A DNA stretch of 64,000 bases from Neelides folsomi (lineage: Eukaryota; Arthropoda; Collembola; Neelipleona; Neelidae): NCBI GenBank assembly GCA_034687125.1, contig JAQGBZ010000003.1:496001-560000 (forward strand). Direction: 5' to 3'. The position numbers were made by a program, and so were the translations under genes. The stretch's first letter is position 1. Each line of letters starts with the position of its first letter. The notes beneath the pieces are model-generated. The model did no database searches, was not told the origin of the DNA, and was given only the letters and a program-made list of their open reading frames with translations. Below, one piece after another: positions 6,887 through 55,078 of the stretch.

Positions 6887-9198
6887 TTAATTACTGAATG
6901 AGGGAGATGGCTCAACAGACTTAATTCCCCTTTTCAATAAGGATTGATGTATAAATCGAGCTGATTGGGATTTGATCTCTTCTCTGGTTGGAACTTTAAC
7001 ATCAAAAAATTCCTCTTCTTCGGAGTCATCAGACACTATGGGAGTTCCCACCCTGATGAGTCTCGCAGGAGGTGGAGGATTTTTAATATAGAGGCTGTAA
7101 TTCTTTGTAGGAGCATCATGAAATAAATGTTCTAATTCATTTTTCTCCCTCAACAATCTCTTCGCTTTTCCAAAAATGAGATTCATAAGTAAAGGCAAAT
7201 TCCCCTTTGTGCTCGAACGACGGCGTTTTCCATTGTCAAGTTGAGCAAGGGTAGAGGTAGCTTTATAAATTCATAATACACATTAAATTTTTAAGTATAA
7301 ATTTTAAATATTATTTAAATCTATCAATATCAATTTTTGAATGTAAATGGAATTTACCAGAGAGTCGAATATTCATGTAGATTCTTCCCAACCTGACAGT
7401 TTTGGCCATAAGCTTTTCATTTTCATCGGCAGTCTCTAAAATGGCATTGTTGAGGATTTCTTTTTGGGCATCATGAAGAGCTCCGTCACTATATCCACTA
7501 TACCTCACTTGACTTCGAATCATTTCCAATTGATCACGTTGTTTAATTAAAAAGTCTCGATGAGCTTCCTTAGATCGAGTTTCTGCTTTTAATCTTCGCC
7601 CTAACTCCAATACTGTATTCATTCTACACAAATAAAAATTAATAATTTATATGCAATTACCAATAAAATGGACTAAATATACTTAAAGTTAGTATAGCAT
7701 GCAGTAAATTCATACTGTAAGTTAATGTAAGTAAATATAAAGTTCATATAGACTTTTGGTAGAATGTCAATCAGTCAAAATTGAAACCTTTTAGGAATGA
7801 ACGTCAGATCCGAAACTCGCATGATTTCCATGAGTTTCCTTCCTCGATCTTGATATCGTTCAATAAGACTCCTCTTTTCCATCAGAGTGCTGTTGATTTG
7901 GGAGTCAGTCATAATGGACATTATTGATATTTCCGTATCGGTGTGTTGGGGTGGCTTCCGGAAAGGAGCCATAATCAAAGATTGATGTTGTTTATTCTTC
8001 AACTCATCTTTTTCTTCAATGACTCGCTGAACGGCTCGCTTCATCTTGGCCAGTTGTCTCCTCCTTGCTCTCCTATTCTCACTCGCTTCTCTTTCAGTAA
8101 GCGTTAAATTGTTCATGGCTTCTTCTCGGAACTAAAAGCAATAAATGATCAATGAATTTCAGGATACTTATCGTTAATTTTAATATAAACCAGTTAAATT
8201 GATTTTAAAATCCACCATTAATGTTAATTTAGTCACATACATATTTAGCGTCGGCTAACATTGCTTCGAGATTTTTCAATTCAAGACGAAGAGTTCTCAA
8301 TTGAGCTTCTTGTTGTCGAAGAATTGGCTCATACCGACCGCGCTCGTGAAGGAGAATGAACTTCATCGCATAATATTTAGAATTGAGAATGGAAGCAGTT
8401 TCTTTTTTAACTCTTAGCTTTTCCAAAAGCCCCTCCACCCGCTTGAGCTCGTCATGAAGTTCTTGTTCAAATGGAAGAGTTCCAAGACGAGGATAAGCTT
8501 CGAGTTCTTCCACAGTCATTTCAGCTTCTTCGAGAGACTTTCGTTTGTCTCCGAGACGCCATATGAGCTCGTTGAATCTCTTTGACACGTCAAACAATTT
8601 ATCTTCCAACCAGCATATGGAAAACTACAGATAACATTTAATTTTAACTTGTTCTGATAACAAAGAACTCATCTCATTCTTTTAGTATTTAATTGCATTA
8701 CATAATTAAAGGTTATTAGTTGTAAATGTAATTTAGTGTTAAATTTTAAAATACATGATATAAAAGCATTTCTAACCCTTGGAACTTTATCTGACATTGC
8801 TAGTTGGAATGTTCTGTGAGTTCTCAATGCATTTTGAACGGCCCTTTTCTCTGATTCAATAGTTTCAATGAGTTTAGTCCGGAGTTCGCGAGTGGAGTTG
8901 TAAAGTTCCTTAACATATTGGTAAACCCCGTCGGAAGAAGCTTGGGATTCTTCTTTCAAAACTCGATTGTATTTTTCTAATTAAATGAAATTCGATTAGG
9001 AATTTAATTATAAATACAACTTGAGATTGATTTAAAATGAAAACCTTTAAGAGCTATTTTAAGCCTTAAGGCTTCAATTTGTTCTTGAATAGGAATGGAG
9101 TCTTCTGCATCAAAGTCAATCGTGGCATGAAATGGTTGACATTTTTCAGGCTTTTTGATAATACGGCCATATATTGATGAGGTTTTTTTAATGAACAT
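6887..9198 (-). CDS. ODAD3: ODAD3 (CCDC151)-like outer dynein arm docking complex subunit, six exons, 573 aa
   Basis: A coiled-coil protein of the complex that anchors outer dynein arms to axonemal doublet microtubules in motile cilia and sperm tails. Minus-strand exons: 9198-9045, 8976-8777, 8624-8241, 8131-7788, 7623-7358, 7260-6887 (1722 nt). Length is close to human ODAD3 (595 aa, from memory). Most of the chain is charged heptad-like helix starting with IQEQIEALRLKIALKG. Matches to ODAD3 that I recognise are the RYSG segment in the last third and a C-terminal acidic run SDDSEEEEFFDV followed by TREEIKSQSARFIHQ, which parallels the human DEESEEED...LKIRSQKLIES tail. ODAD1 and CCDC63 are related alternatives. 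It diverges from the stalk-only dynein gene across about 0.9 kb. Confidence 0.8.
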
Positions 9199-10076
9199 TT
9201 TCCACCCCCAATTACTTTAATTTAATTGTAGTCTTTTAATTAAAATCTATTAATTACAAATCAATACTTTAGGTCGATACTAAAATTGATGGATAAAATC
9301 ATAATAGAAAATCATTTTCTTTCACAATTTTCATTGGTTTTATTTTAAAGTTGCTTCCAGTAACAAGTTCGGATTAGTTTTTGATTAAACGGTTAGAAGG
9401 ACCATAAGACCCATAATGTTTAAACTCGTTAAACTGTCCAAGATTATATGCAAATTAAATAATTGAACTATGAGGAGAATTAAACATGAACTTGAAACTT
9501 GAGCGAGCACCTGCGATTACAAGTTGATTATGGAAGTAATTACCAAAATACTTTGTCGTGCATAACGTAGAGTACGATATTTCTAAAAACTGACTTTCTG
9601 AGTAAAAACGATAATGGATATGAGCAATACTAACGGAAGTATAGGACAAACAATTACTACATTTCCAAGTTCAATAAAAGAATTTAAGACGCAAGGACGC
9701 TTTCGAGATTTTGATCAAGATTGGAATCCAGAGGTTTAGCAAGTTGAGTATTAAATCAATGAGTTAAAAGGTTAAACACTCTTTCTCCTATAAAAGCCAA
9801 ATGTGTAAGGTACTTTACTAAAACAATTTTATGCTTACAGTTAGGTATATTATTATTTTATTATGAGCCCATTGATCCATGATCCATGAGGCATTCCGAG
9901 AACTTGACATTCAATTGGGATTGGGAAGGAGAAAACGCCAGTTGTTTCCATCCGTTTCTTTGAGACACACACACGATACATTTATTCTGCAATCACACTT
10001 CCTCAACTTTTCACCATGTGTTAAATATAACTTTATAAATTTTATTTACCATTAATTAAATAACAAGCAGTTTAAA
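9199..10076. other. Divergent intergenic region, ODAD3-like to dynein-stalk gene
   Basis: About 0.88 kb between two divergent genes, a candidate shared promoter for two flagellum-linked genes. It contains a 41-codon ATG frame (9614-9739) that could be an exon or chance. No repeat recognised. Confidence 0.45.
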
Positions 10077-11076
10077 ATGGAAAACGACAAAGAATCTAAA
10101 ATTCCACTCAAGTCCTCACATAATGTTGAGGCTGACAAGCTCGTGCGGTTCACCGACTTCTCTTTCTTGGAGAAGGTGGATGGTGCTGACAATGACAATT
10201 TGAAAATATTTCGTGAAAAAGAAGAGTCGGCGAAGAAATCTTTGCCAACTGCAATCGCCATCATGGAAGAACTCGAAGTTGAGCTGAGAGACTTAAGACC
10301 AATATTGAAACTTTCAACTCTCAGACTTCGAATTCCATGGGCTGATGCAGGTTCACACTCTTAAATTTTAATTATGTTAATCTTGATTTAATTTTAATGT
10401 TAATTAAAATTTTCAATATGGAATATTAATTTCAAATCAATTGCATAATTTGACAGAGGCAGTTCGAAGCAGAAGATGTAAACCCCCACAAGGTGTACGT
10501 GTTCTAATGGAAGCTGTATGTATTCTGAATGGAATTGAACCATGGCATAAGTTTGATAAAGACTTGAATAAAATCGGAGATGGTGATTATTGGGTTCCAT
10601 CAAGGCGTCTTTTAAGAACCAACTTTGGAAAATTTTTGAATGAAATGAAAGATGTGGAAATCAGCGAGGAAAGGGTTTTAAAGTTTCAACAAAATTTCAC
10701 TGCAAATTCAAAATTTGAAGCTTCAAGAGACCAAATTTTTGGTACTTTTAGACCGGCTGGAGGTAAAGAAATTTATAAACAAATAATTACGTAAATACTA
10801 TATGTGACAATATTTCACAGAGGCTCACTCAAGTAATCTTTATAAGCTAATGTGATATTTTTTGTAGTTGTCTATCTGTTTCTTATTGGAGTATTGCAAT
10901 ACCAAGCTGTTTTAAGACTCATGAGGGAAAAGCGGCGTCAGTATGATAGAGCAGATGAAATTTACAATCAAGCTCTCAAGTGTCTTCCAGCCATAAGGCA
11001 AAGAATCAGAAAATTGGAAAGAGATGAGGAAGTTCGCATAGCTTTTGGGCAATTCGAAACTGAAAAAAAGACTTAA
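10077..11076 (+). CDS. Stand-alone dynein heavy-chain stalk/microtubule-binding-domain protein, three exons, 262 aa
   Basis: The protein resembles only the coiled-coil stalk and microtubule-binding tip of an axonemal dynein heavy chain. Exons 10077-10350, 10457-10762 and 10868-11076 sum to 789 nt, ending in TAA-type stop context after ETEKKT. A family-specific N-terminus of about 55 residues precedes a helix (stalk arm 1). CKPPQGVRVLMEAVCILNG then matches the PPxGVxLVMEAVCxxxG hallmark of DNAH1/3/7/12-type heavy chains, followed by DYWVPSRRLLRTNF (cf. DYWGPSKKML). Exon 3 (YQAVLRLMREKRRQY onward) resembles the returning stalk arm. No AAA+ ring, linker or tail is encoded. An alternative in-frame acceptor for exon 3 lies near 10893. 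It has its own Met, intact frame and stop, so it looks like a gene rather than a leftover dynein exon. It would bind tubulin without motor activity, if it binds at all. Confidence 0.75.
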
Positions 11077-11490
11077 AAGTTTAGAAAACTTCGTCCACAA
11101 CAAACGTCCTAAATTATGAGTTTCGGTTTATCCAAATCTAATGAATCTATTTACATTTGAATGATACATATTTGATATTTGAATATAAATATTATATTTT
11201 TACATAATAAAAATTGTACTCCTTGTCATTGTACTTAAGGCTAGCAATAAATTAAATAAAATTGTTAAATAAAGTCAACATTCATAATGGATTTTCAAGG
11301 AAGCATCTCTGTTTATTGACTTTGTTAAAAATGTTTTCAAACTTGGGAATTTCGTTATTATGTATAAGAATAGTGGATTCATATTTTAATGACTAAAAAT
11401 AATAAGGGACATCAAATTGTTCACTCAAAATTAGGAGTCAAGAGTCTTGAGTCTTGACTCCTAATTTTAGTTCCAAAGGCTCTTGTGTAG
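11077..11490. other. Convergent intergenic spacer with perfect hairpin
   Basis: Spacer between the ends of the dynein-stalk gene (+) and the Cys-rich gene (-). AATAAA motifs occur near 11206 and 11249. It contains the inverted repeat described separately. Confidence 0.6.
11427..11468. repeat. 17-bp perfect inverted repeat with 8-nt loop
   Basis: The left arm AAAATTAGGAGTCAAGA (11427-11443) is the exact reverse complement of 11452-11468, with an 8-nt loop. It sits between two convergent gene ends, 23 bp beyond the proposed stop of the Cys-rich gene. It could fold as an RNA hairpin in either 3' UTR or be a relic of a small palindromic element. No direct repeats were noticed at its edges. Confidence 0.8.
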
Positions 11491-14048
11491 TTAACACCGA
11501 ACTCCTTTAAAATGATAAAAAGGAATTAAAATGCAGTCATCCAATAATTACAGGTGAGAATAGAGAAAATGAAAATATGGTAGTTGTTATTATTAGATAA
11601 CTATAATTTTAAATGTTTACTAACCTGATAAACGGCAGGTTGGTGGGCAGAGTTTAACGCTAACAAAGCATTGATTCTCCTGTTGAGGAGGGCAGCAAGG
11701 TTTTGGGCAACATTGAGGAGTCTGAGGCTGAGGGCAAGTGGGTGGAGGAATGTAGCAAGGAACGGTGCTTTGCTTTAATTAGTAAATTGAACATTAATAT
11801 TTTTTATTCACTTTAATAAATCAATGATTAGTGAATTGCAATTTAAATAATACCAAGCTAATGCAAAGAGGTCTTGGGCAACAGCGAGGATCAGAAGGCT
11901 CACAGCATAGATCAGGGCAGCAAAGCTGAATAATCGAAAAAGTGTTAAATTCGGTTAGCTTATAAAACTTCAATAGTTTGACAAGAGATTCGGGAATTTT
12001 ACTTGTGGTAGTCGACAGCAAGGGTCAGGACAGCAAGGTTGACATTGCTTAACTATCAATTATAAGCTTTGAAATAAAATGTCCTTTGAAATCAAATATC
12101 TGCAATATGAAACTCACCAACAATGCAGCACGGAGGAAGAGGATTGCAGCATGGGGATGGGCAACAATCTTGATTTGGTGGGCGAGAGAGAGGAGGGCTG
12201 CAGCTAATTATACCGTAAGATAAAAATCATTATTATTACAATAATTGCACAAGAAAAGTCGACGTGAAAAAAGATTAAATTGTCTTGGTTTATGTTCCGC
12301 CGGAACCATAAACGGGGCCCGGTGTATTGACTGATGTTATAATGTTTACTAAATGAATTTTGAATTACTATAAATTGTGACTATGGCATTATTTAGTGTG
12401 TTGCTATGTTTTGTTATAATATGAATATGAAAAAATGATGATTTTTATGATTGTAATTTCCGACAAATAAAGTCGCACTTTTTCATGTGCAAATTCTAAC
12501 TATAAAGTGCACCGAAATCTAACTATAAATGAAGGAGACAATGATATAGAAAGTAAAAATATAAATATTCATTTCCAAACCTATGACGAATAGGTCGAAC
12601 AATCATGCTTGGTGGAGGGCAGCAAGGATCAGGGCAAGGACTGGAATAAAACAAATTTTTTAATAAACGTTATCAATTAATTGACTCAAATCATATGAAA
12701 TGGCATTTACCCGCAAGGTGGTGGGCAACAATTGCCACCTCCGTAGCTATTGCCACCTCCACCGCCACAGCTATTTCCATATCCGCCACCATTACTATTT
12801 CCGTATCCTCCGCCGCCTCCGCAGCCACTGCTTGTATTACAACCGCCGTAGCCACCACCGCAACCGGCTCCACGAGCTCCGCAACATCCACCGCCACCGA
12901 TAATGGCACTGCTGCTTCCGTCACAACACCGACGACCGCAACCAAGGCCGCCTCCTCCGCAGCCACCTCGTCCTTAATTAAAAGGAACGTTACCATCAGT
13001 ACCTTTCAACATGTTTCATTTTCATAATTATTATTTTAAAATTTATTTTAAAAACCAGAGGAAGAGCCACAACAAGGAGTTCTATCTTGACAACACGGGT
13101 CTCGGCATTGCCTGCATGGTGGGCAGCATGGAATTGGAGGACAACACCTTAAACATAATTAATTAAATATGAATTCTTGAACTTGAATATTTAATATATT
13201 TTGCTAACAGTTGTTGAATTTCGTATGGTATTTATTTTAATGAATACCTCGGTGGGCAAATGGGAGGAGAAATGACCAAGCACATTCGTTTGCAACAAGG
13301 AACTTCCGGACATGGGGGCGGGCAGAAACCTTCATAAAATATGATTATTAGCACAACAAGTAGATCGAATATCACCATTGAAAGATATGAATATTCATTA
13401 GCGAATAAATTAAATCTCATTTCTAGAATGATGCCTTACATCTTCTTGAGAGTTGAATGCTAATGAAACAAAAACCACATTAAATCACATTTGATTAATT
13501 GTATTAATTAGTGAGTAAAGATAATTATATTCTAGATACGAATTAATGAAATTGAAATTCATGAGCTAACCATGGATCAGGACAGCATGGTGGAGGACAG
13601 CAAACCTAATAAAATAAATGTTGATTATTTCACTTCTAAAATATACGATTAGACAAATAGCCAATATAGTAGTTAAAATGAAACGTTAAATACCTTTGGA
13701 AAACATGGCATTGGTGGACAACATTGTGGAGGAGGTAGTGGACAAGATCTACAGCATGGTCGACATGGATCCGGAGTGCCTAAAATACAAATCAATTTAA
13801 TTGTCTTAAATTAATGTGTTAAAGCAATGAAAAATCTACGGTTTAAACAGTAGTACTTACAAAGGGTTAAGCGTGGAGGACAGCAACATGGCGGAGGGCA
13901 ACATTTCCCAATCCCACATGGACTCCCAGCCTATTAAAAATCCAAATTTGATTATGTTTACTATGCTTACACATGGAATTACGAGCAATTAAAATCAAAA
14001 TTGTGAATTTACTCTTGTCTGGTTTGATGAATAACAGCCACAAGCCAT
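11491..14048 (-). CDS. Cys/Pro/Gly-rich structural protein, 14 small exons, 370 aa
   Basis: Not recognised as a named family. Minus-strand exons: 14048-14013, 13930-13861, 13779-13694, 13605-13571, 13459-13440, 13329-13248, 13147-13056, 12972-12711, 12640-12581, 12203-12118, 12052-12003, 11925-11854, 11772-11625, 11504-11491 (1113 nt). The protein starts MACGCYSSNQTR with no signal peptide, so it is probably intracellular. Most exons encode one or two CCPPPCCP- or CCPDPCC-like modules. The largest exon (12972-12711) encodes a Gly-rich block with CGGG, GYGN and GCCG repeats ending CCPPPC. Composition recalls disulphide-crosslinked proteins such as keratin-associated proteins, SMCP and the Drosophila Mst sperm proteins, but this is composition, not homology. 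The first and last exons are short and least certain; the core is well supported by conserved frame and splice phase. Confidence 0.7.
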
Positions 14049-27800: not shown

Positions 27801-30800
27801 GTAAGGTTTAAAATCCCTAAAGGGCAATGACTAAAATAGTATTTAATTAAGTAAATAGTATCACAAGAAAAAATATCGTAAATTTTTTAAACAATAAATT
27901 TTAATTTGTTTTTTATATTTATTCAGGAATTCTTCTGGTAGAGGAATTGTTCCACCAAGACGAAGTTATTCAACTCTTGATAAACCTGACTCACCACAGA
28001 GTTTCACATCATTATCCGGGAACTCGAATCATTGTCGGAGCACTGTTTCCCTCTCAGCTTCTCAGTTCACCAACGAAGTGGTTGAAATCCTTGATGAAAA
28101 GGAGTTGAAGAGAAATGGACCGCACTGCAGTGGTTTCATCTCTCCTGATGCACCTGGAGGAGACGGGAAGGTAGGCGGGAGTAAGGGGAAACGTCGTCAC
28201 GGTCCAACTGAACCACCTGAGGGTGATGTTGATGAGGAGAACAAGGAGCTTGGAATCATCAAAGAGGAGCAACAGCAAAAGCAAATCCTCGATCCTGATG
28301 AAGAAGATGTGAGGATGGGGATGGTCGACACCGAACCTCCAAACACCCACATGGCCAACGTCGAGAAGCCGACGAGCGACGGGGAGGAAGGGGAAGAAGA
28401 AGCCGTCGATGTTAGTCAAGATGGCCGATATCTTAAGTTTGATGAAGAGATCGGGAGAGGAAGTTTTAAGACCGTTTATAGGGGATTGGATACTCAAACA
28501 GGAGTTTCTGTTGCATGGTGTGAACTTCAGGTATTTTTGGAAAATCAATATTAACACATTTCAAATTATTTGAAACAATCTTGGTTTTTACACAAATCTT
28601 AAAAATTGCATGTATAGGAGAAGAAGCTTAGTAAAACGGAAAGGCAGAGGTTCCGGGAAGAAGCAGAAATGCTTAAAGGTCTTCAACATCCAAATATCGT
28701 CAGATTTTACGACAACTGGGAAATGGCGACGACAAAAAAGAAATACATTGTTCTCGTTACCGAACTCATGACCTCGGGAACTTTGAAAATGTAATTTTAT
28801 ATTGGATTCTTCTTTTAAATTATTAAGACTTAAGACTTTGGAGATTAAAAGTTATTCATATTTAATATAAACAACATATCAATTTTTTCTAGGTACCTTC
28901 GACGTTTTAAGAAGATCAACTTAAAAGTCCTCAAGTCCTGGTGTCGTCAGATCTTGAAAGGCCTCCACTTTCTCCATTCAAGAACTCCTCCGATTATTCA
29001 TCGAGATCTCAAGTGTGATAACATATTCATTTCTGGAACAACGGGGTCTGTGAAGATCGGGGACCTCGGTCTCGCCACGCTCAAGAACCGATCTTTTGCA
29101 AAGTCAATCATTGGAACTCCGGAGTTTATGGCCCCAGAGATGTACGAGGAACATTACGACGAGAGTGTTGATGTCTACGCCTTTGGAATGTGTATGTTAG
29201 AGATGGCGACCTCAGAGTATCCCTATGCTGAATGTACTGGACCAGCCCAGATTTATAAGAAAGTAGTTTCGGGTGTTAAACCAAACAGTTTTGAAAAGAT
29301 TGAAACACCTGAAATCAAAGATATTATAGACCAGTGTATTCGCTTGAATAAGGAAGAAAGGCCGAGTGTGAAGTCCCTTCTTAATCACGAATTCTTTGCC
29401 GAAGATCCCGGATTAAAAATTGAACTAATGTCGAAAGAAGAAGCTGTTAATTCAGATGCTCGGAAAGTTGAGTTCAGGCTTCGAGTCGTTGATCCTAAAA
29501 AGAGGAGCAATAAATATAAAGAAGACGAAGCCATTCAATTTGAGTTTGATATTGAATCTGACAACGCTGACGAAGTGGCTCAAGATATGGTAACCATTCA
29601 TTCTGAATATTTATTTCATTCGTGAAGGTTCTGATTCTTCTGATTAAGATAGACAATGATTAAATAAATTACTGATACAAATTAATATAAAAGGTAATAA
29701 TAATATTATTATCATAAAGGCTAAAACTGACTTGCTCGTAATTGGAGAAGAAGACAGCAAAGCCATAGCGAAAATGCTGAGGAATCTCATTGGAAATCTT
29801 GTGAGGGATCGGGAAGAAAGGAGAAAGCAAGCAGCTGTGGATTACCATCAATCTCAGGCTCAAAATCAGCAGATGGGTTTAGTCAATTTAATAGGTCATC
29901 AAATCCCGATTGGAATGGGTGTTGGGATTGTTCCTATCGAAGGCCAACTAACAACTGATCACCTCAACTTCTCTGATAATCTTGCTGAGCTTCAACTCGA
30001 CCCTGGATATGTGACAATGCAAACGGGAGACCATCAGCATCAACATATCATTCAGGCTGCTGGGCAAATTTATATCCAACAACCTGTGCCAGTAAGAATT
30101 AAATTGCATTTAAGGCCTTTAAAACGCTAACTAAAAATTGTCTAATTAAATTAATACAGATTAAACAAATACATTATTTTAATTTCAGGGTCAGCAGCAG
30201 ATGTATCCTCAGAGTTATTTTCAAGTTGCTCCAGCAAGTCAGTCAACTGTTTTTGCAACGAATAATCCCCCATCAACGTTCATTGGAGATCCTTCTCAAT
30301 TTGCATTTCCTGGGTCTCCTGTTTACGTCGCAGCGGGTTTCAATGGTGGACAGTCGTTGGTTCAAACTCCTTCTGTTGTTGTTGTCCCTCAGCAGGTACT
30401 TTAAAATTTTAATTGATATTTTTTTAAAGACAAAAAAGATAAACGATCAAACGTGACTTGCTTTGCTTTTGCTCTCATATTAAAGTTTTAAATTGTTTTT
30501 GGATCTTTAATAACATTAATTAAACAGTTGTTTTAAACATTAAAAATTTAATTATATCGTTATTGTTTGAATTAATAATCAGTATATTTTGATTAATGTT
30601 TGTATAACACATGAAAGTAATTTAAGTACGTTTAACCTTTACCTTTTTAGTTAAATGAAATTGTTAATACTAGTATTTAATAAAAAAATAATATTATGCT
30701 TGAAGTTTGATTTTTGGAATGGAATTTGTGTTCAGAGTCAAGTATTGCCTGAGCGAAGAACCGAAGGCGACAGTGGGCATGGAAATGGGAGCATGTCATC

Positions 30801-47970: not shown

Positions 47971-50900
47971 ATGTGTAAGTTTAATTTTTCTATTTTATAA
48001 TTAATGTCTAATGTTTAATTTATATATAACTATTTAATTTAAAAGGTCGAAATTTTATTTTATTTAATCAACCAGTTTTCTTGTAGATTACGGTGAAATT
48101 GACCCTGGAAATGGCGTCGAAGTGACAGGGGAAGTCGACGAGTCGCTCGTGTTTCCTCAAAATGGAGAATTTCAAAAGTTGAGTTCTATCCTTGTCGATG
48201 GAGGAGATCGATTTGGAGTTTCTTCTGTCACTTTTGACCTTCAAGAAGAATTGGTTTGGATGGGAAATCAAGGGGTGAGTTTGGTGACATCATTATTTAA
48301 CGATTAAATTCTATATTTTACGCCCACTTAAAACTTTTTCTATTTGGATTTTTATTTTAATCGGGTACATAAATAAAAATGAATCTGTAACAGTTAAATA
48401 CGTAAATCATTTTATTTTATGTAATTTTTTGAAATGAGAAACGATTTAATTTCAGGGCCACGTTACATCATATTATGGAAATAATTTAGAAAAATATACG
48501 TCATTTCAAGTTCATCCAACTCAAGAGATTCGTTCAATCCTCACATTTGATGAAATTATTTTAATTCAAAGTCAAACTCAGCTTAGGGGTCAAATTCGAA
48601 GAGGATTACCATGCTTCAATTACACGTAAAACATGCTATTGATTTTTATTAAAATAATAAAATTATACAAAACTAGCACTTTTAATTTTAATATAAACTA
48701 GCACTTTTAATTTTTAACAGTTCAGAGACCTTGCAAGATATGCAATGCATGATGCCAACATCAAGTAATACAGTTCTTATTGGCGGTCAGCAAATGGATC
48801 TCGTGGAGTTCGACGTCACGACTAACACGGAACTTAAATCAGTACGTTCTCAATTCATTCTAAATGTTTATTAAATTATTAATAATACATATTTATTACA
48901 TAATAATAACCTATAAAAATTAATTTCTTGTCAATTTCTTCTTTAGGTGTTTTTAAGCGACGTTGGTTGCACGTTGTTGAGAGGCCAAGGGCTTCAAGGT
49001 CAAGGTCGATGGATTTGTGCAGGAGAGCCTTCTGGAAATATTCATCTTCTTGATTTAAGAACTTACGAAGCTGAACACAGTCTTGAAGCCCACAATGGAT
49101 CTCTTAGCGACTTCGATGTTCATGGGAATTTAATGGTCACCTGTGGGTTTTCAAGCCGACATGGAAATTTGGCCGTTGATCGTTTCGTTAAAGTTTATGA
49201 TTTGCGAGCGTTGAGAGCTATGGCCCCAATTCAACTTTCAATAGATCCTTTTCTCCTTCGATTTCTTCCCAGCTTTTCGTCAAGAATCATTTCCGTCTCG
49301 CCAACAGGACAAATGGAAATTCTTGAGACTCAAGCTGTGTCTCAAGCAGAGATTTGTTTATACCAGGTAATTTTTAAATAATTAACTTTGGTTAATAAAT
49401 ATAGTATAAAAGAACAGATCAGTTTAATTATTGCTTAATTTAAACAGGTAACTTCGAATTCATCAATGTGCAATGCATTTGATGTGAGTTCTTCATGTCA
49501 TCAAATGGCGTTTGGAGATTCAACGGGTCAACTCCATCTTTTTTCTTCGAATCCTTCAGCCGTTTTCAACTCGTTCTCTCGAGACACAGAATTTCCTGAT
49601 CCTATCCCCCAATTTCCGTTCATGGCCTACACAGATGAATTAGTTTCTTATTCAACAATTCCTCTTCCGATTCCAGAGGGTCCTTTAATGTCTGATTGGC
49701 CTCCTCATCTCCTTCGTCCAACCTACCGTGCCGTCCCTGCAATTGACCCTACTGTTCTAAATTCAATGAAAATGGTCGGAACAATCGGCTACGCTCCGAA
49801 TCCTGGAACTTTTCGTCGAAATCAAGTGATGTACAATTTGAATGCGAGTTCCTCTCCACTTCCCTGGTCACCTCAATCAATGGGGGAAGATCCATATGCT
49901 GAGACAAATTGCAATGAATTTCGATCTCAGGGTGGGAAAATGCCAATGATGCAAGTTTCCCATCAGCCCATCCAATCCCCAATTTTGGGAATGGGTGGAA
50001 GTAAAAGAGGAGGAAAAACTAAATATGGTCCTCGATCTTTAAATTCACCTGGACGGGTCAACATCCCTAAAAGATACGCAAGACTTGAGTGGAAAAAAGG
50101 AATTCTTGAGGAAGAAGCGTTAGAGGGATTCAATCGAACCAAGTTTTCTGGGCTTGAAGCCACACAAGCGAACGCTTATTGTAATGCGATGCTCCAAGTT
50201 CTATTTTACATTGATGGGCTGAGGAAAGGAGTTTTATGTCATTTGTGCAAGAAGGAAGCGTGTTTGTCTTGTGAACTCTCTTTCCTATTTCATATGATGG
50301 GACATAGGAGGAATGGTTTGCCGTGCTTGGCAAGTAATTTCTTAAGAGCCTTTCGACTCGTTCCGGAAGCTTCAGCCTTGGGCTTAATTTTACAAGAAAG
50401 TCAAAGCAAACAGAGAAGCGCATTTCTTCGTCTCATTCAGGTAACTTTATTAACAATTGTTTTAATTTTTGCAATTCAAGTTGGATAATAATTCTGTACC
50501 TATTTTATTTTATACCTTACAATTTTATTACGACAATTTAATTTTAAGTTATTAGAAATGAGGGTAGGTACAATATAATAATTGTTATTTACAAATTACG
50601 ATTTACTGATAATAAGTATTATTCGTTGGTTGAATGTAAGTTGGCTGAGTTGCTGACAAAGATAAGATTTTATTTTATGGAATATTTAAATTACCAGATT
50701 TTAAACATTTTTTACAATTTTTCCCACCACACTTTTTCCCACAAGTACAGACTTCTTCGGTTGATTTATCGGCTTGACTATTAAAACCAGTTGCAAATCC
50801 GTTAGGTAGATTGACAGGTTTCTGTGGACCTTTTTGATTGTTATCTTGTTGATTAACGCATAGTTTTTTCGCTTTAAGAACATTCTTCGGGGCTATGAAA

Positions 50901-53900
50901 CCATCATAATATTTGGGAGAGAAAACAGTTGGTACATTTTGTGGTTCAGATCGGGTTTTAGTTACAACTGTATCCATCGGTATTCCCATTCTGTTCGGTG
51001 TCCTGAAAGAAAAAGTCCTCCTATTTGTATAAGTGAAGTCACGAGGCATGGACATGGCTTTCTTTGCGTTAGCACAGGCTTCTTGGAGCATAAGATTTAA
51101 TCGGATTTTATTGACGTAATTGTAAGCAGCAGTTGCTCGGCAGACGGGACAGTGACAATTTTTTAGTTCTGGGATTTTGGGGATGCAACAGCAGTTCAAT
51201 TCATTGCAACTGATTAGGGATTCATAATTCGGATCTTCTGTAGATTTCCAGGGAGGATTTAATGAACAATATTCTACATTATTCATTTGGTCCGCTTTTT
51301 CAAATGCTGTTTAAAATCAGATTAATCCATGATCAAAAATTATTTTTTAAAACATTAATTAAATAAAATAGGTTAATATCTAGTGTACAGTGGAATCCGG
51401 TTATAATGAATCCGTTTATAGTGAATATCCTGATATAATGAATTAAAAATTTTGTCCCCTCATTTGAAAAATCATATACAAACAAGTTAAATGAACTTCG
51501 GCTATAATGAATATTCGGTTATAATGAACGTAAATGGTCGGTCCCTTGAGATTCATTATAAACGGATTCCACTGTATTAAAATTGATATTTGTAAGCTTT
51601 AAGTAAATTTTAGTTGTTTAAACCTCGAGCTTTGTAACTTTCAAGTCGTTTGCACCACCCATTGAATTTATTACAACGATTCGATCGATTTCCAACAAAA
51701 GGGCGACGAAGTTTGATTGTTAAAGGTGCCCCTGAGAATTTTCTTGACGTTGGATCTGAGAGGCGAAGGGCTTTCATGATGTCAGAGTCAGGAATCCAGG
51801 GATCATTTGGCCCTTGTTGAGGAATGTCCTTTTTATCTTTTTCCCATGCGACGCTGGGAATCCTATTAACGTTAGCATTTTTATTAATTTTCCATTCATC
51901 TTCACTGTTCATGTCATTGTATTGGGAATTAGGCTCTTTTGATTGTATAAAAATGTGAACTGTCTCCCTTCTCGTCCTTTTTCCTTTTCTTGTCGGTGTT
52001 TTTGGACTGTTTGGATTTTCGGAACTTGGCCTTACGGATGGGGTGGATTTTGATTTTGACTGGTTCGTCTTTTGCTTTTGCTTTTTATCATCTTCCTCAA
52101 TTTTGTTAATTCGGTTTTCGAGGTTATTTTGTTCCATCTTTTTCTTTCCTATTTAATTATTGTATGATGAATTATTTTGATTTAATCGTATAATTAATTA
52201 AATCCAATTTTAGAAATTTATCCAAGTTAGAAATTTTAAGTTAATAATATAAAATTAATAATTTAATTAATAACTTTTAACTATTATATTATAACTTATA
52301 ATAATAAAATGGAAACATTAATCTTTGGCACCTTTGTCATTTTTCTCATTCGTTGGCCCTTTTTTGGCTTTGGTGTTGAATGGAGTTTTCTTGGCCGTTG
52401 TGACAGCGTAAATTTGGATTTCTTCGTGTGGGAGTTCTTGGGGTTGTACTTTTATTTCCTCTTCTTCCTCCTCCTCCTCTTTATTGTTGTTCTCGTCATC
52501 GTCGTTTTCTAATTCGTTGTGGTTCTCTTCATCCTATAATTTTTGATTATTTAGCCCATTTTAATTGATTTGGGTATATTTTAATTAGAATGAAAAGGTA
52601 TATATTATTTGTGGTAATATTTACTCCTGAATCTGAAGAATAGTCGTTGTCGTTTGATGATGACATTATTAAGAAGTTAAGAGCTTTCTATAAAAACGTG
52701 ATCTTTGAGACTGTTACAATTTAAAAAAATATATTTCAATTTCTTTATTTGATGACTGATTAATTATACTTTAAAATTTTCAAGTTAAATATTTTTTTGA
52801 TTTTTATTTAATAATTTTATTATAATTTAATTTTGTTAATTATTTTACATTAAAATCATTTCCTTTTCATTGAGGTTGCAATGATTTTTTTGTTTTCTTA
52901 CAAGTTTCTATGAATTAGGTCCCTTAATTGATCATGATTTTATTTAAAGTGTGGATTTTATGCATAATCTAGTTAAATAAAAAAAATAAACTTAAATTCA
53001 AGGTTTTTTAAATGATTTTATTTTTTAATAGAATTGGAATCGTTTTATTCTTCATCAAGTGGAGATGGAGACCAAGATCGAAGGAGTTGAGTCAGATCCT
53101 GTGAGAAAGCTCTTTGCAATGAAACAACAAAACAATTCCCGTTGCGGCAAATGCGGACGAGAGGAGAAAAAGGAATCAGTGGTTTTGCTGAGCAATTTAC
53201 TTTACACGCCTGATGCCACTTGTGGAGGAAAACGCTGCAGATTTGTTGAAATTCTTCAAAGGTCTTTATGCCCCGAGCAAACGACCCCAGCTTGGTGTGA
53301 AGGTTGTGAAAAATATCAGCCAACATTTCAGTCAAGAGTTCCAAAGGCCCTTCCGACTTTCTTGGCTCTTAACACTTGTCTCGATGCTCCGCATGATTTT
53401 CAAACATGGCGACATGCACTTGAAGCTCTGTTACCTCAAGAAAAAGCTATTAAACCAGAGAGCCCAAGACATTCACCAGCACCATCGTTTTTAAAATCAT
53501 GTAGATATGGAAGAAATTGCATGAGACACGATTGCAAATTTTGGCACGAGGGAAGATCCAATCAAGGAAAACCTGAGTCAGGTAAAATTATTCAATTTAC
53601 TCTTCAATAATCACATGAAGTAGTCAAAGCTGATCCTTAAAGATAAAAAATATTTTTATAAAATATTTTAATTAACATTTTAATTGGCTGATTTTCCTTT
53701 CACAGTAGGAAAACAATCGGAATTTGAAGTGAATCCAGAATTAACAGTTAAATGGCTCTCTCCTGAAATTCGAGTTTCGATTGAAGAAAACAGAAGGGTT
53801 CGTGTGCTCGACATGGACAATTTAGAAAAGCCACAAGCAATTCCAGAAGATAAAATTGCATCAGGGCTTGCTTCAGATTATAAAATATTTGCAGTGGTTG

Positions 53901-55078
53901 TCTTCGCTAGGGATTTTGAACTTGAGGAGAAAAATAATATTGTTGCTCTTATCAATGTTGATCCAGAATATTCAGAACGATTTGGGCAACCAAAAGGGAA
54001 ATCCAGTTGGTACCTTTTTAATGATTTTTCTGTTCGTGAATCAAGTTTAGCAGAAGCAACTTCATTCAATCCCAAATGGAAAATCCCTTCAGTTGTTTAC
54101 TACAGAAAGGCCCATTTAGAGCCTGAAACTTACATCAATGACAACGATATTCCATGTCCCATTGGGCCAGAAGTCTTTCAGAGTGTTCCATCGACAGGGA
54201 AGAAATTGTTATATAAACCACTTGAACCGGAAGAAGTTCCTAAAAAGGGAGAGCTCGTTGCGATGGACGCTGAATTTGTCACCTTGGGTCAAGAAGAAAC
54301 GGAGTTGAGGAGCGATGGGAAATTAGCCACAGTGAAGCCCCAACAACTCACTGTTGCACGTATCACATGCGTCAGAGGTCAAGGACCACTAGAAGGAACA
54401 CCCTTCATTGATGACTATATTTCCACGTCTGAAGTCGTCATTGACTACTTAACAAAATTCTCAGGAATTAAACCAGGGGATTTGGATGCGAACTTTAGCT
54501 CGAAGAACGTCACAGGGTTGAAAACGGTTTACTTGAAGCTTCGTTACTTGATTGATTCAGGGGTCAAATTTGTGGGTCATGGGTTATCAAACGATTTCAG
54601 GTAAGGTTTAAAATTACAAAACCATTGTATTTTTTATAAAAAGTAATAGAGATATTTTCAATTATGAATATGAATATTATTATGATAAATTTTTGAATTT
54701 CTTATTTTTAGAGTCATCAATTTAATTGTTCCATCTGATCAAGTAATTGACACAGTAAATCTTTTTTATCTTCCTAACCAAAGGATGATTTCACTTCGTT
54801 TCCTCGCATGGCACTTTTTAGGTATGGGATTTAATTCTTGTGTTGTGGCTCATTTTTTTATTAAAATTGTTTTGATCTTTATAAATTAATATTTGCTTTC
54901 CTTAGGATTACAAATTCAGTCTGAAGTTCATGATTCGATAGAAGATGCACGTGCGGCTTTACTTCTCTTTAGAAAATACGAAGAGCTTAAAAGAGATGGA
55001 ACTCTCGAAAACGAACTAGAGAAAGTTTACGATGCAGGGAAAAAAGCATGTTGGAAAATCCCAAATGGTAGCCCTTAA
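47971..55078 (+). CDS. PAN2: PAN2, catalytic subunit of the PAN2-PAN3 poly(A) deadenylase, ten exons, 1207 aa
   Basis: PAN2 shortens mRNA poly(A) tails in the cytoplasm together with PAN3. Exons: 47971-47974, 48087-48274, 48456-48625, 48721-48841, 48947-49366, 49448-50440, 53032-53581, 53706-54600, 54712-54821, 54906-55078 (3624 nt; human PAN2 is about 1200 aa). WD40-type N-terminus ([24 protein letters not shown]), then [14 protein letters not shown], the inactive ubiquitin-hydrolase-like domain ([20 protein letters not shown]), and a DEDDh exonuclease. Its catalytic residues are visible: [13 protein letters not shown] and HDSIEDA. Exon 1 carries only ATG plus T before a perfect GTAAGT, giving MYYGEIDPG, close to human MNFEGLDPG. 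Inside exon 7 lies a finger [16 protein letters not shown] (CX5CX4CX3H). Intron 6 (2.6 kb) contains two antisense genes. Confidence 0.93.
50675..52137 (-). CDS. Unrecognised Cys-containing protein nested antisense in PAN2 intron 6, two exons, 381 aa
   Basis: Function unknown. Minus-strand exons 52137-51624 and 51306-50675 join in phase (1146 nt). The first exon encodes a charged, Ser/Lys/Pro-rich N-terminus ([31 protein letters not shown]) and [18 protein letters not shown]. The second starts [14 protein letters not shown] and has two Cys clusters: [12 protein letters not shown] with CHCPVCRA near its start, and [15 protein letters not shown] at the C-terminus. Cys spacing could bind zinc, but no named motif fits. 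The 317-nt intron between the exons holds a 187-bp MITE. No signal peptide. The gene lies entirely inside one PAN2 intron on the opposite strand. Confidence 0.7.
51388..51574. mobile_element. 187-bp Tigger/pogo-type MITE with TA duplication
   Basis: Inverted repeats CAGTGGAATCCG continue for about 23 bp with one or two mismatches, and TA flanks both ends (51386-51387, 51575-51576). The interior repeats the motif TATAATGAA several times in both orientations, as in Tigger-derived short elements. No coding capacity. It lies in the intron of the antisense nested gene, which itself lies in a PAN2 intron. Confidence 0.9.
52318..52666 (-). CDS. Small acidic protein nested antisense in PAN2 intron 6, two exons, 85 aa
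   Basis: Not recognised. Minus-strand exons 52666-52625 ([14 protein letters not shown]) and 52533-52318 join in phase 0 (258 nt). The protein has an acidic core (ENDDDENNN, then EEEEEEE), followed by a lysine-rich tail ending KNDKGAKD. It could be an independent gene or the first cistron-like part of a longer antisense transcript leading to the 381-aa gene, whose start is 181 bp downstream. Low complexity makes coding status less certain. Confidence 0.5.

Follow-up and report, generated by a model that had tools for sequence, protein, structure and literature searches.

Stand-alone dynein stalk genes in the genome of the collembolan Neelides folsomi

Introduction

Can the microtubule-gripping tip of a dynein stalk be encoded by a gene that has no motor? 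The question is raised by positions 10077-11076 of a 64,000-nucleotide stretch of N. folsomi DNA (assembly GCA_034687125.1, contig JAQGBZ010000003.1, positions 496,001 to 560,000 of the forward strand), which we call the window. An initial annotation, made from the letters alone, had proposed here a single three-exon gene for a motor-less stalk and microtubule-binding domain (MTBD) nearest to those of DNAH1, DNAH3, DNAH7 and DNAH12. In dynein, as described in PMC4987762, coiled-coil registry normally sets the grip and is itself driven by a ring at a distance of about 25 nm.

Dynein surveys can miss stand-alone stalk genes; one, according to PMC2239267, dropped sequences of fewer than 1000 aa as fragmentary. 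A search of the open-access literature by title and start of abstract, with partial coverage, found no description of such a gene, and automatically annotated homologues may well exist in other arthropods.

Gene structure and dynein homology

The spliced frame of the window gene runs from ATG to stop codon through three exons on the plus strand and encodes 262 amino acids (Table 1). The stop-to-stop frame around the ATG starts at 10056, so an in-frame stop lies upstream of the ATG, and the terminal stop is at 11076; the proposed gene model, with its own start and stop, is supported. In the frame used, exons 1 and 2 contain no stop and exon 3 only the terminal one, and the other frames contain 4 to 10 each. 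None of 20000 mononucleotide shuffles left all three exons open (one stop permitted in exon 3). The GC content is 0.39 in exons against 0.21 in introns.

Table 1. Coordinates of the window gene, its neighbours and related features elsewhere in the genome
Feature	Position	Strand	Description
Exon 1	10077..10350	+	Open frame with ATG and phase-1 donor; variable N-terminus and distal coiled-coil 1 (CC1), aligned to dynein CC1
Intron 1 (phase 1, GT/AG)	10351..10456	+	Absent from sister genes; the sister i1 position (after MEAVCILN) is unbroken in the window gene
Exon 2	10457..10762	+	CC1 end, conserved PP, MTBD helices H1-H5, hairpin at the DNAH flap place (alignment, AlphaFold2, Foldseek)
Intron 2 (i2; phase 1, GT/AG)	10763..10867	+	Shared, in place and phase, by all seven family members and the C399 and C117 heavy chains
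Exon 3	10868..11076	+	Helix H6, proximal coiled-coil 2 (CC2) without junction proline, stop codon
Candidate polyadenylation signals, 3' of the stop codon	11206..11273	+	AATAAA/ATTAAA at 11206, 11246, 11251, 11255 and 11268; consensus match only
KxW arrays, upstream of three stalk genes	L022 7145-6285 (-), L025 5690-5041 (-), L027 9757-8454 (-)		
Window, coiled-coil-rich open frames	7311-9216	-	Divergent from the stalk gene
Window, small frames adjoining the stalk gene	11601-13435	-	Cysteine/proline-rich and glycine-rich
Window, protein kinase	28849-29625	+	With OSR1_C domain, WNK-like
Window, UCH_1 and RNase_T domains	49439-54604	+	In open frames of one stretch
Heavy chain on C674	18754-20109	+	AAA1 match; no match to MT, AAA4 or AAA5

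Residues 33-245 of the window protein matched the DNAH1 stalk 8i3j_A in a phmmer search of the PDB (E = 5.8e-11), followed by the Chlamydomonas chain 8glv_Kg, further DNAH1 entries, DNAH12 and DNAH7. At E <= 1.4e-4 the search returned 17 distinct sequences, each of which is a dynein heavy chain or its MTBD as judged by length and alignment; one of these, 9fqr_Xx, bears the wrong molecule name. These matches indicate that the window protein is dynein-derived and not a chance resemblance. Two of its sister proteins, introduced below and named by their contigs, showed the same kind of stalk homology, C724 at 6.1e-17 and C95 at 2.2e-7, the latter over part of the MTBD. The alignment was significant across CC1, MTBD and CC2 for the window protein, for C724 and for a profile of the whole family.

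The Pfam stalk model (MT, PF12777), to which the initial annotation had looked for confirmation, did not provide it: a Pfam scan of the window protein returned 0 families at E <= 1, MT included. Among the six sister proteins only C486 matched the model (E = 4.1e-5), at 23.2 bits and so under the curated 24-bit cut-off, and the other five gave no MT match in that scan.

We modelled exon 2 alone (100 residues) with AlphaFold2, using a nine-row alignment of contiguous exon translations, and obtained a mean pLDDT of 79.4 and a pTM of 0.65. The predicted topology is a helix, a two-strand hairpin and then four helices. The best four Foldseek matches of this model in the PDB were dynein MTBDs, DNAH7 (6rza) first, then 8i3j, 2rr7 and 6l4p, with probability 0.99-1.00, query TM 0.52-0.60 and E-values of 2.8e-3 to 3.8e-2, none of them <= 0.001. 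An MTBD fold is thus predicted for exon 2. The predicted hairpin lies between H1 and H3, the position of the DNAH7 flap, which contacts the neighbouring protofilament according to the available part of PMC6629372. The sequence evidence as a whole indicates that the locus is a coding gene for a distal dynein stalk and MTBD from which the motor is absent.

A family of stalk genes

The gene proved real, as proposed, and not single. A search of the organism's own 75.1-Mb genome with the window protein gave 13 matches, which fell on the three exons of the window gene itself, on six further stalk-like genes, on a heavy chain of contig C399 (0.012) and on C89 (0.955). The C89 match was excluded by eye as an unrelated frame. 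A second query, built from one sister, recovered the same seven genes and a weak match to a heavy chain on C122 (0.338). The seven stand-alone genes lie on C3 (the window's contig), C95, C724, C486, C360 (one on the plus and one on the minus strand) and C157. The number is to be read as at least seven, the genome search scoring the best candidates only. With six more such genes in the same genome, the window gene does not stand as an isolated fragment.

In all seven genes the spliced core is open from CC1 onwards, and each ends with a stop codon in its last exon; this exon directly follows i2 except in C95, which has one further exon. Start codons could be placed for the window gene and C724 and less surely for C95, whereas C486, C157 and the two C360 genes have no fixed start. 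The window protein is the most divergent member, with an MTBD identity of 30-34% to the other six, and FastTree supported monophyly of the family at 0.997.

Partial content and strong divergence are what one would expect of pseudogene fragments of heavy-chain genes, yet seven open frames with splice sites, family-specific residues shared between members and a pN (0.37-0.54) below pS (0.69-0.87) in 21 of 21 pairs make such an origin extremely improbable. Synonymous sites are saturated in these comparisons. The neutral decay of the frame that the initial annotation had named as evidence against its proposal was accordingly not seen within this genome.

Beyond this genome, pattern searches gave 10 matches in prokaryote genome contigs and 16 in viral contigs, with 0 confirmed, in collections that hold no eukaryote genomes.

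Motor domains

Whole-genome searches with Pfam models of the dynein ring matched AAA1 (PF12774) on eight contigs, C122, C399, C44, C66, C674, C117, C500 and C453, and AAA4 (PF12780) and AAA5 (PF12781) on the same contigs minus C674, so that seven carry all three domains. The sole further match in these searches was on C263 (E = 1.25). On the contigs of the family (C3, C95, C724, C486, C360 and C157) there was no AAA1, AAA4 or AAA5 match, including across the window's entire 678-kb contig. The family thus has no AAA+ ring in the same gene as far as AAA1, AAA4 and AAA5 are concerned, the three domains on which the absence of a motor rests. Joining of the stalk exons to AAA+ exons, the other observation that would have counted against the initial annotation, was likewise not seen. 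The heavy chains have stalks of their own, since the MT model was found on the same seven heavy-chain contigs.

That the stalk genes are pieces of a broken heavy chain was rejected on the lack of AAA1, AAA4 and AAA5 matches on all six family contigs. The heavy chain on C674 may be cut by the contig end.

Origin of the family

A profile of the seven cores matched 60 sequences at E <= 0.01, with DNAH12 at 1.1e-26, DNAH3 at 5.0e-24, DNAH7 at 6.7e-23 and DNAH1 at 2.3e-22. DNAH6 (1.0e-9) and DNAH2 (3.5e-8) followed, and cytoplasmic and outer-arm chains were weaker. The profile and the phmmer match of the window protein bear out the proposed kinship with the DNAH1/3/7/12 group.

Introns point the same way. 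The heavy chain on C399 is of the DNAH7 type (9.8e-173), and its stalk region contains i1, in phase 0 after MEAVCILR, and i2, in phase 1 before the H6 tryptophan. The place and phase of i2 in C399 recur in each of the seven family genes; i1 recurs in five, and the window gene and C95 lack it. Six other heavy chains were read for comparison, C674 being excluded: C117 has i2 and not i1, C66, C500, C44 and C122 have neither, and C453 is without i2 and unreadable at the i1 site. We infer that the family probably began when an inner-arm heavy chain of the DNAH7/3/12 type had its stalk exons copied at the DNA level.

The family's branch in the FastTree tree is long and neighbours cytoplasmic dynein (0.714), not DNAH7, so the tree does not confirm a DNAH7/3/12-like origin.

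The DNAH12 chains 8j07_g1 and 9fqr_PW in the PDB align to the C399 stalk over the whole stalk and MTBD, at E about 1e-67. This contrasts with the description of DNAH12, in the accessible text of PMC11949491, as being without a typical MTBD.

The family's kinship with DNAH3/7/12/1, motors that would run on the same track, is also what one would expect of competitors that limit or tune inner-arm motors, either by taking up MTBD sites on the doublet or by pairing with the stalks of heavy chains. Such proteins would be expected to retain tubulin-facing residues most strictly, yet the start of H6 is altered in all seven members, and we consider this role improbable.

Residues at the stalk tip

Residues were counted in a 17-row alignment of the seven family members and ten heavy-chain rows, four of them from this genome. 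All ten heavy-chain rows have the proline at the CC2 junction, and none of the seven family members does. The serine that starts H6 in all ten heavy-chain rows is F or Y in all seven. Outside this alignment, C117, C500 and C44 retain the CC2 proline, and by eye the H6 serine is present in C117 and C44 and not in C500. The PP on the CC1 side is found in 17 of 17 rows, so the family has junction prolines on one coiled-coil strand (PP in 7/7) and not on the other (CC2 proline in 0/7). A basic residue (K/R) in H1 is kept by five of the seven members, with Q in the other two, and by nine of ten heavy-chain rows. The H6 tryptophan is present in six members and replaced by F in the window protein. 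All members also have a proline 14 residues before the PP; it was rejected as diagnostic since a proline occurs close to this position in DNAH3 and DNAH12 too.

PMC4987762 tests by simulation a proposal that conserved prolines close to the MTBD, on both strands of the stalk, act as hinges. Loss of the CC2 proline may accordingly reflect release from motor coupling.

The same residues bring in the main rival to a microtubule-binding family. Since the H6 and CC2 junction changes affect residues invariant in the heavy-chain rows of the alignment, and two of seven members have Q in H1, tubulin binding may be weakened or lost. The stalk-tip fold would then be retained as a scaffold, with the proteins binding other partners, for instance one another, a dynein or a different complex of the axoneme. 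The high divergence of the window protein and its missing H6 tryptophan fit this, and the H1 K/R in five members, the PP in all seven and the flap-position hairpin predicted in the window protein speak against it. On balance we regard a scaffold that no longer binds tubulin as unlikely, if a serious contender.

N-termini and KxW repeats

The N-termini vary from member to member. Short open stretches 5' of C95, the minus-strand gene of C360 and C157, on the coding strand, contain a motif like LKLIKMKKSIKAWLK, five per locus. This KxW repeat is basic, amphipathic and tryptophan-containing. C95, C360 minus and C157 also form a clade in the FastTree tree (0.970).

Repeats were counted with a scoring matrix in place of an earlier, looser regular expression, which had also matched C486 and the opposite strand of the window (2) and C360 plus (1). 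The window, C724, C486 and C360 plus loci contain no KxW motif at the equal matrix threshold. The 14 seeds of the matrix were drawn from the three KxW loci, so 14 of the 15 matches fall there by construction; the sole independent match is in C157, at 19.1 bits. On leaving out one seed at a time, 11 of 14 scored at least 15 bits and three scored under 5. In control sequence totalling 143 kb, taken from the window and eight other loci, a single match scored 10.5 bits. When a 52-residue stretch with two copies of the motif was searched against the genome, only C360 was listed (2 matches), the query being too narrow to show how far the motif is spread.

The arrays probably belong to the same transcripts as the stalk genes, and the repeats possibly bind calmodulin or tubulin. 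Their position, together with the unfixed starts of four members, would suit a stalk tip that is one domain of longer proteins whose other exons have gone unrecognised. The stop codons in all seven genes, the in-frame stop before the window ATG and the lack of AAA+ matches (AAA1, AAA4 and AAA5) on the family contigs argue against larger genes, which we rate as quite improbable. Were they real, the length of some members would change and the absence of a motor would not.

Neighbourhood of the window gene

The initial annotation had placed the stalk gene next to an outer-arm docking gene on the minus strand, an identification that found no backing: the coiled-coil-rich frames there had no PDB match at E <= 1 and in Pfam only a GAT match (E = 0.002) below the cut-off, a weak absence given a rough query of joined frames. 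Two of the small frames on the other side were scanned, with no Pfam match at E <= 0.01. The UCH_1 and RNase_T pairing further along the window is as in PAN2. An Rfam scan of the window gave 0 matches.

Elsewhere in the genome, TTAGG repeats gave 28 overlapping matches and a reversed-pattern control 0. Frames on the mitochondrial contig, read by eye, show nad1 on the strand opposite to nad2, cox1, cox2, atp6, cox3 and nad3, and a gap of roughly 40 bases separates cox1 from cox2. These features suit an arthropod, probably one that lacks the pancrustacean tRNA order usually seen; ARAGORN, run with the bacterial code, found 0 tRNAs on this contig.

Discussion

We find at least seven paralogues in which a dynein stalk tip stands behind member-specific N-termini with no AAA+ ring, and that they bind microtubules without acting as motors, and descend from an inner-arm dynein gene, is the explanation we prefer and, in our judgement, an even call. 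A bolder reading is tentative, at somewhat less than even confidence: copies of inner-arm stalk exons escaped ATP control, gained new N-termini (with KxW repeats in one clade) and now serve, in at least seven genes, the sperm or sensory cilia of arthropods as independent proteins that associate with microtubules or cross-link them.

On the preferred account, the stalk exons of a DNAH7/3/12-type heavy chain would have been duplicated, with the fold kept and the motor-coupling features lost. The part encoded would be the end of CC1, the MTBD and the start of CC2. The MTBD would dock on tubulin, and the N-terminus, a KxW array in three members, would hold a partner. Because a short coiled coil has no ring to shift its registry, binding would be ATP-independent. 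We infer tubulin binding, this independence of ATP and a use in sperm or sensory cilia. Against the account stand the changed residues in H1, H6 and CC2, the poor decoration of microtubules by a DNAH7 MTBD construct (below), the modest Foldseek E-values, the FastTree placement, the saturated synonymous sites and the lack of a confirmed relative among the prokaryote and viral contigs searched.

Non-motor microtubule-associated proteins of the axoneme are a general class, and ATP-independent attachment to microtubules is the role proposed here for the stalk family. The window protein and its six sisters match no such axonemal family in Pfam.

Compared with the stalks of DNAH3, DNAH7, DNAH12 and DNAH1 (solved in 6rza, 8i3j and 2rr7), the family is alike in the sequence of the CC1 end, MTBD and CC2 start, in an MTBD fold that is predicted to carry a hairpin where the flap sits, and in two intron positions common with the genome's DNAH7-type gene. 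It differs in having no linker or AAA+ ring (AAA1, AAA4, AAA5), in its short arms and own N-termini, in the lost CC2 proline and in the aromatic residue that replaces the H6 serine.

A parallel in design is the engineered SRS-stalk-MTBD fusion made for structural studies (PMC6629372), likewise a motor-less short coiled coil that carries an MTBD. Those fusions are artificial, their registry being fixed by seryl-tRNA synthetase, and such pieces can decorate microtubules. The same source reports that the DNAH7 MTBD on its 12-heptad SRS-fused stalk decorated microtubules poorly and needed the stalk of cytoplasmic dynein instead; strong binding is thus not to be taken for granted. A natural family that keeps the grip domain without a ring, with stalk-junction changes common to its members, would amount to a set of evolved experiments separating the residues for binding from those for motor coupling, and would show that a motor gene can seed microtubule-associated proteins through exon duplication.
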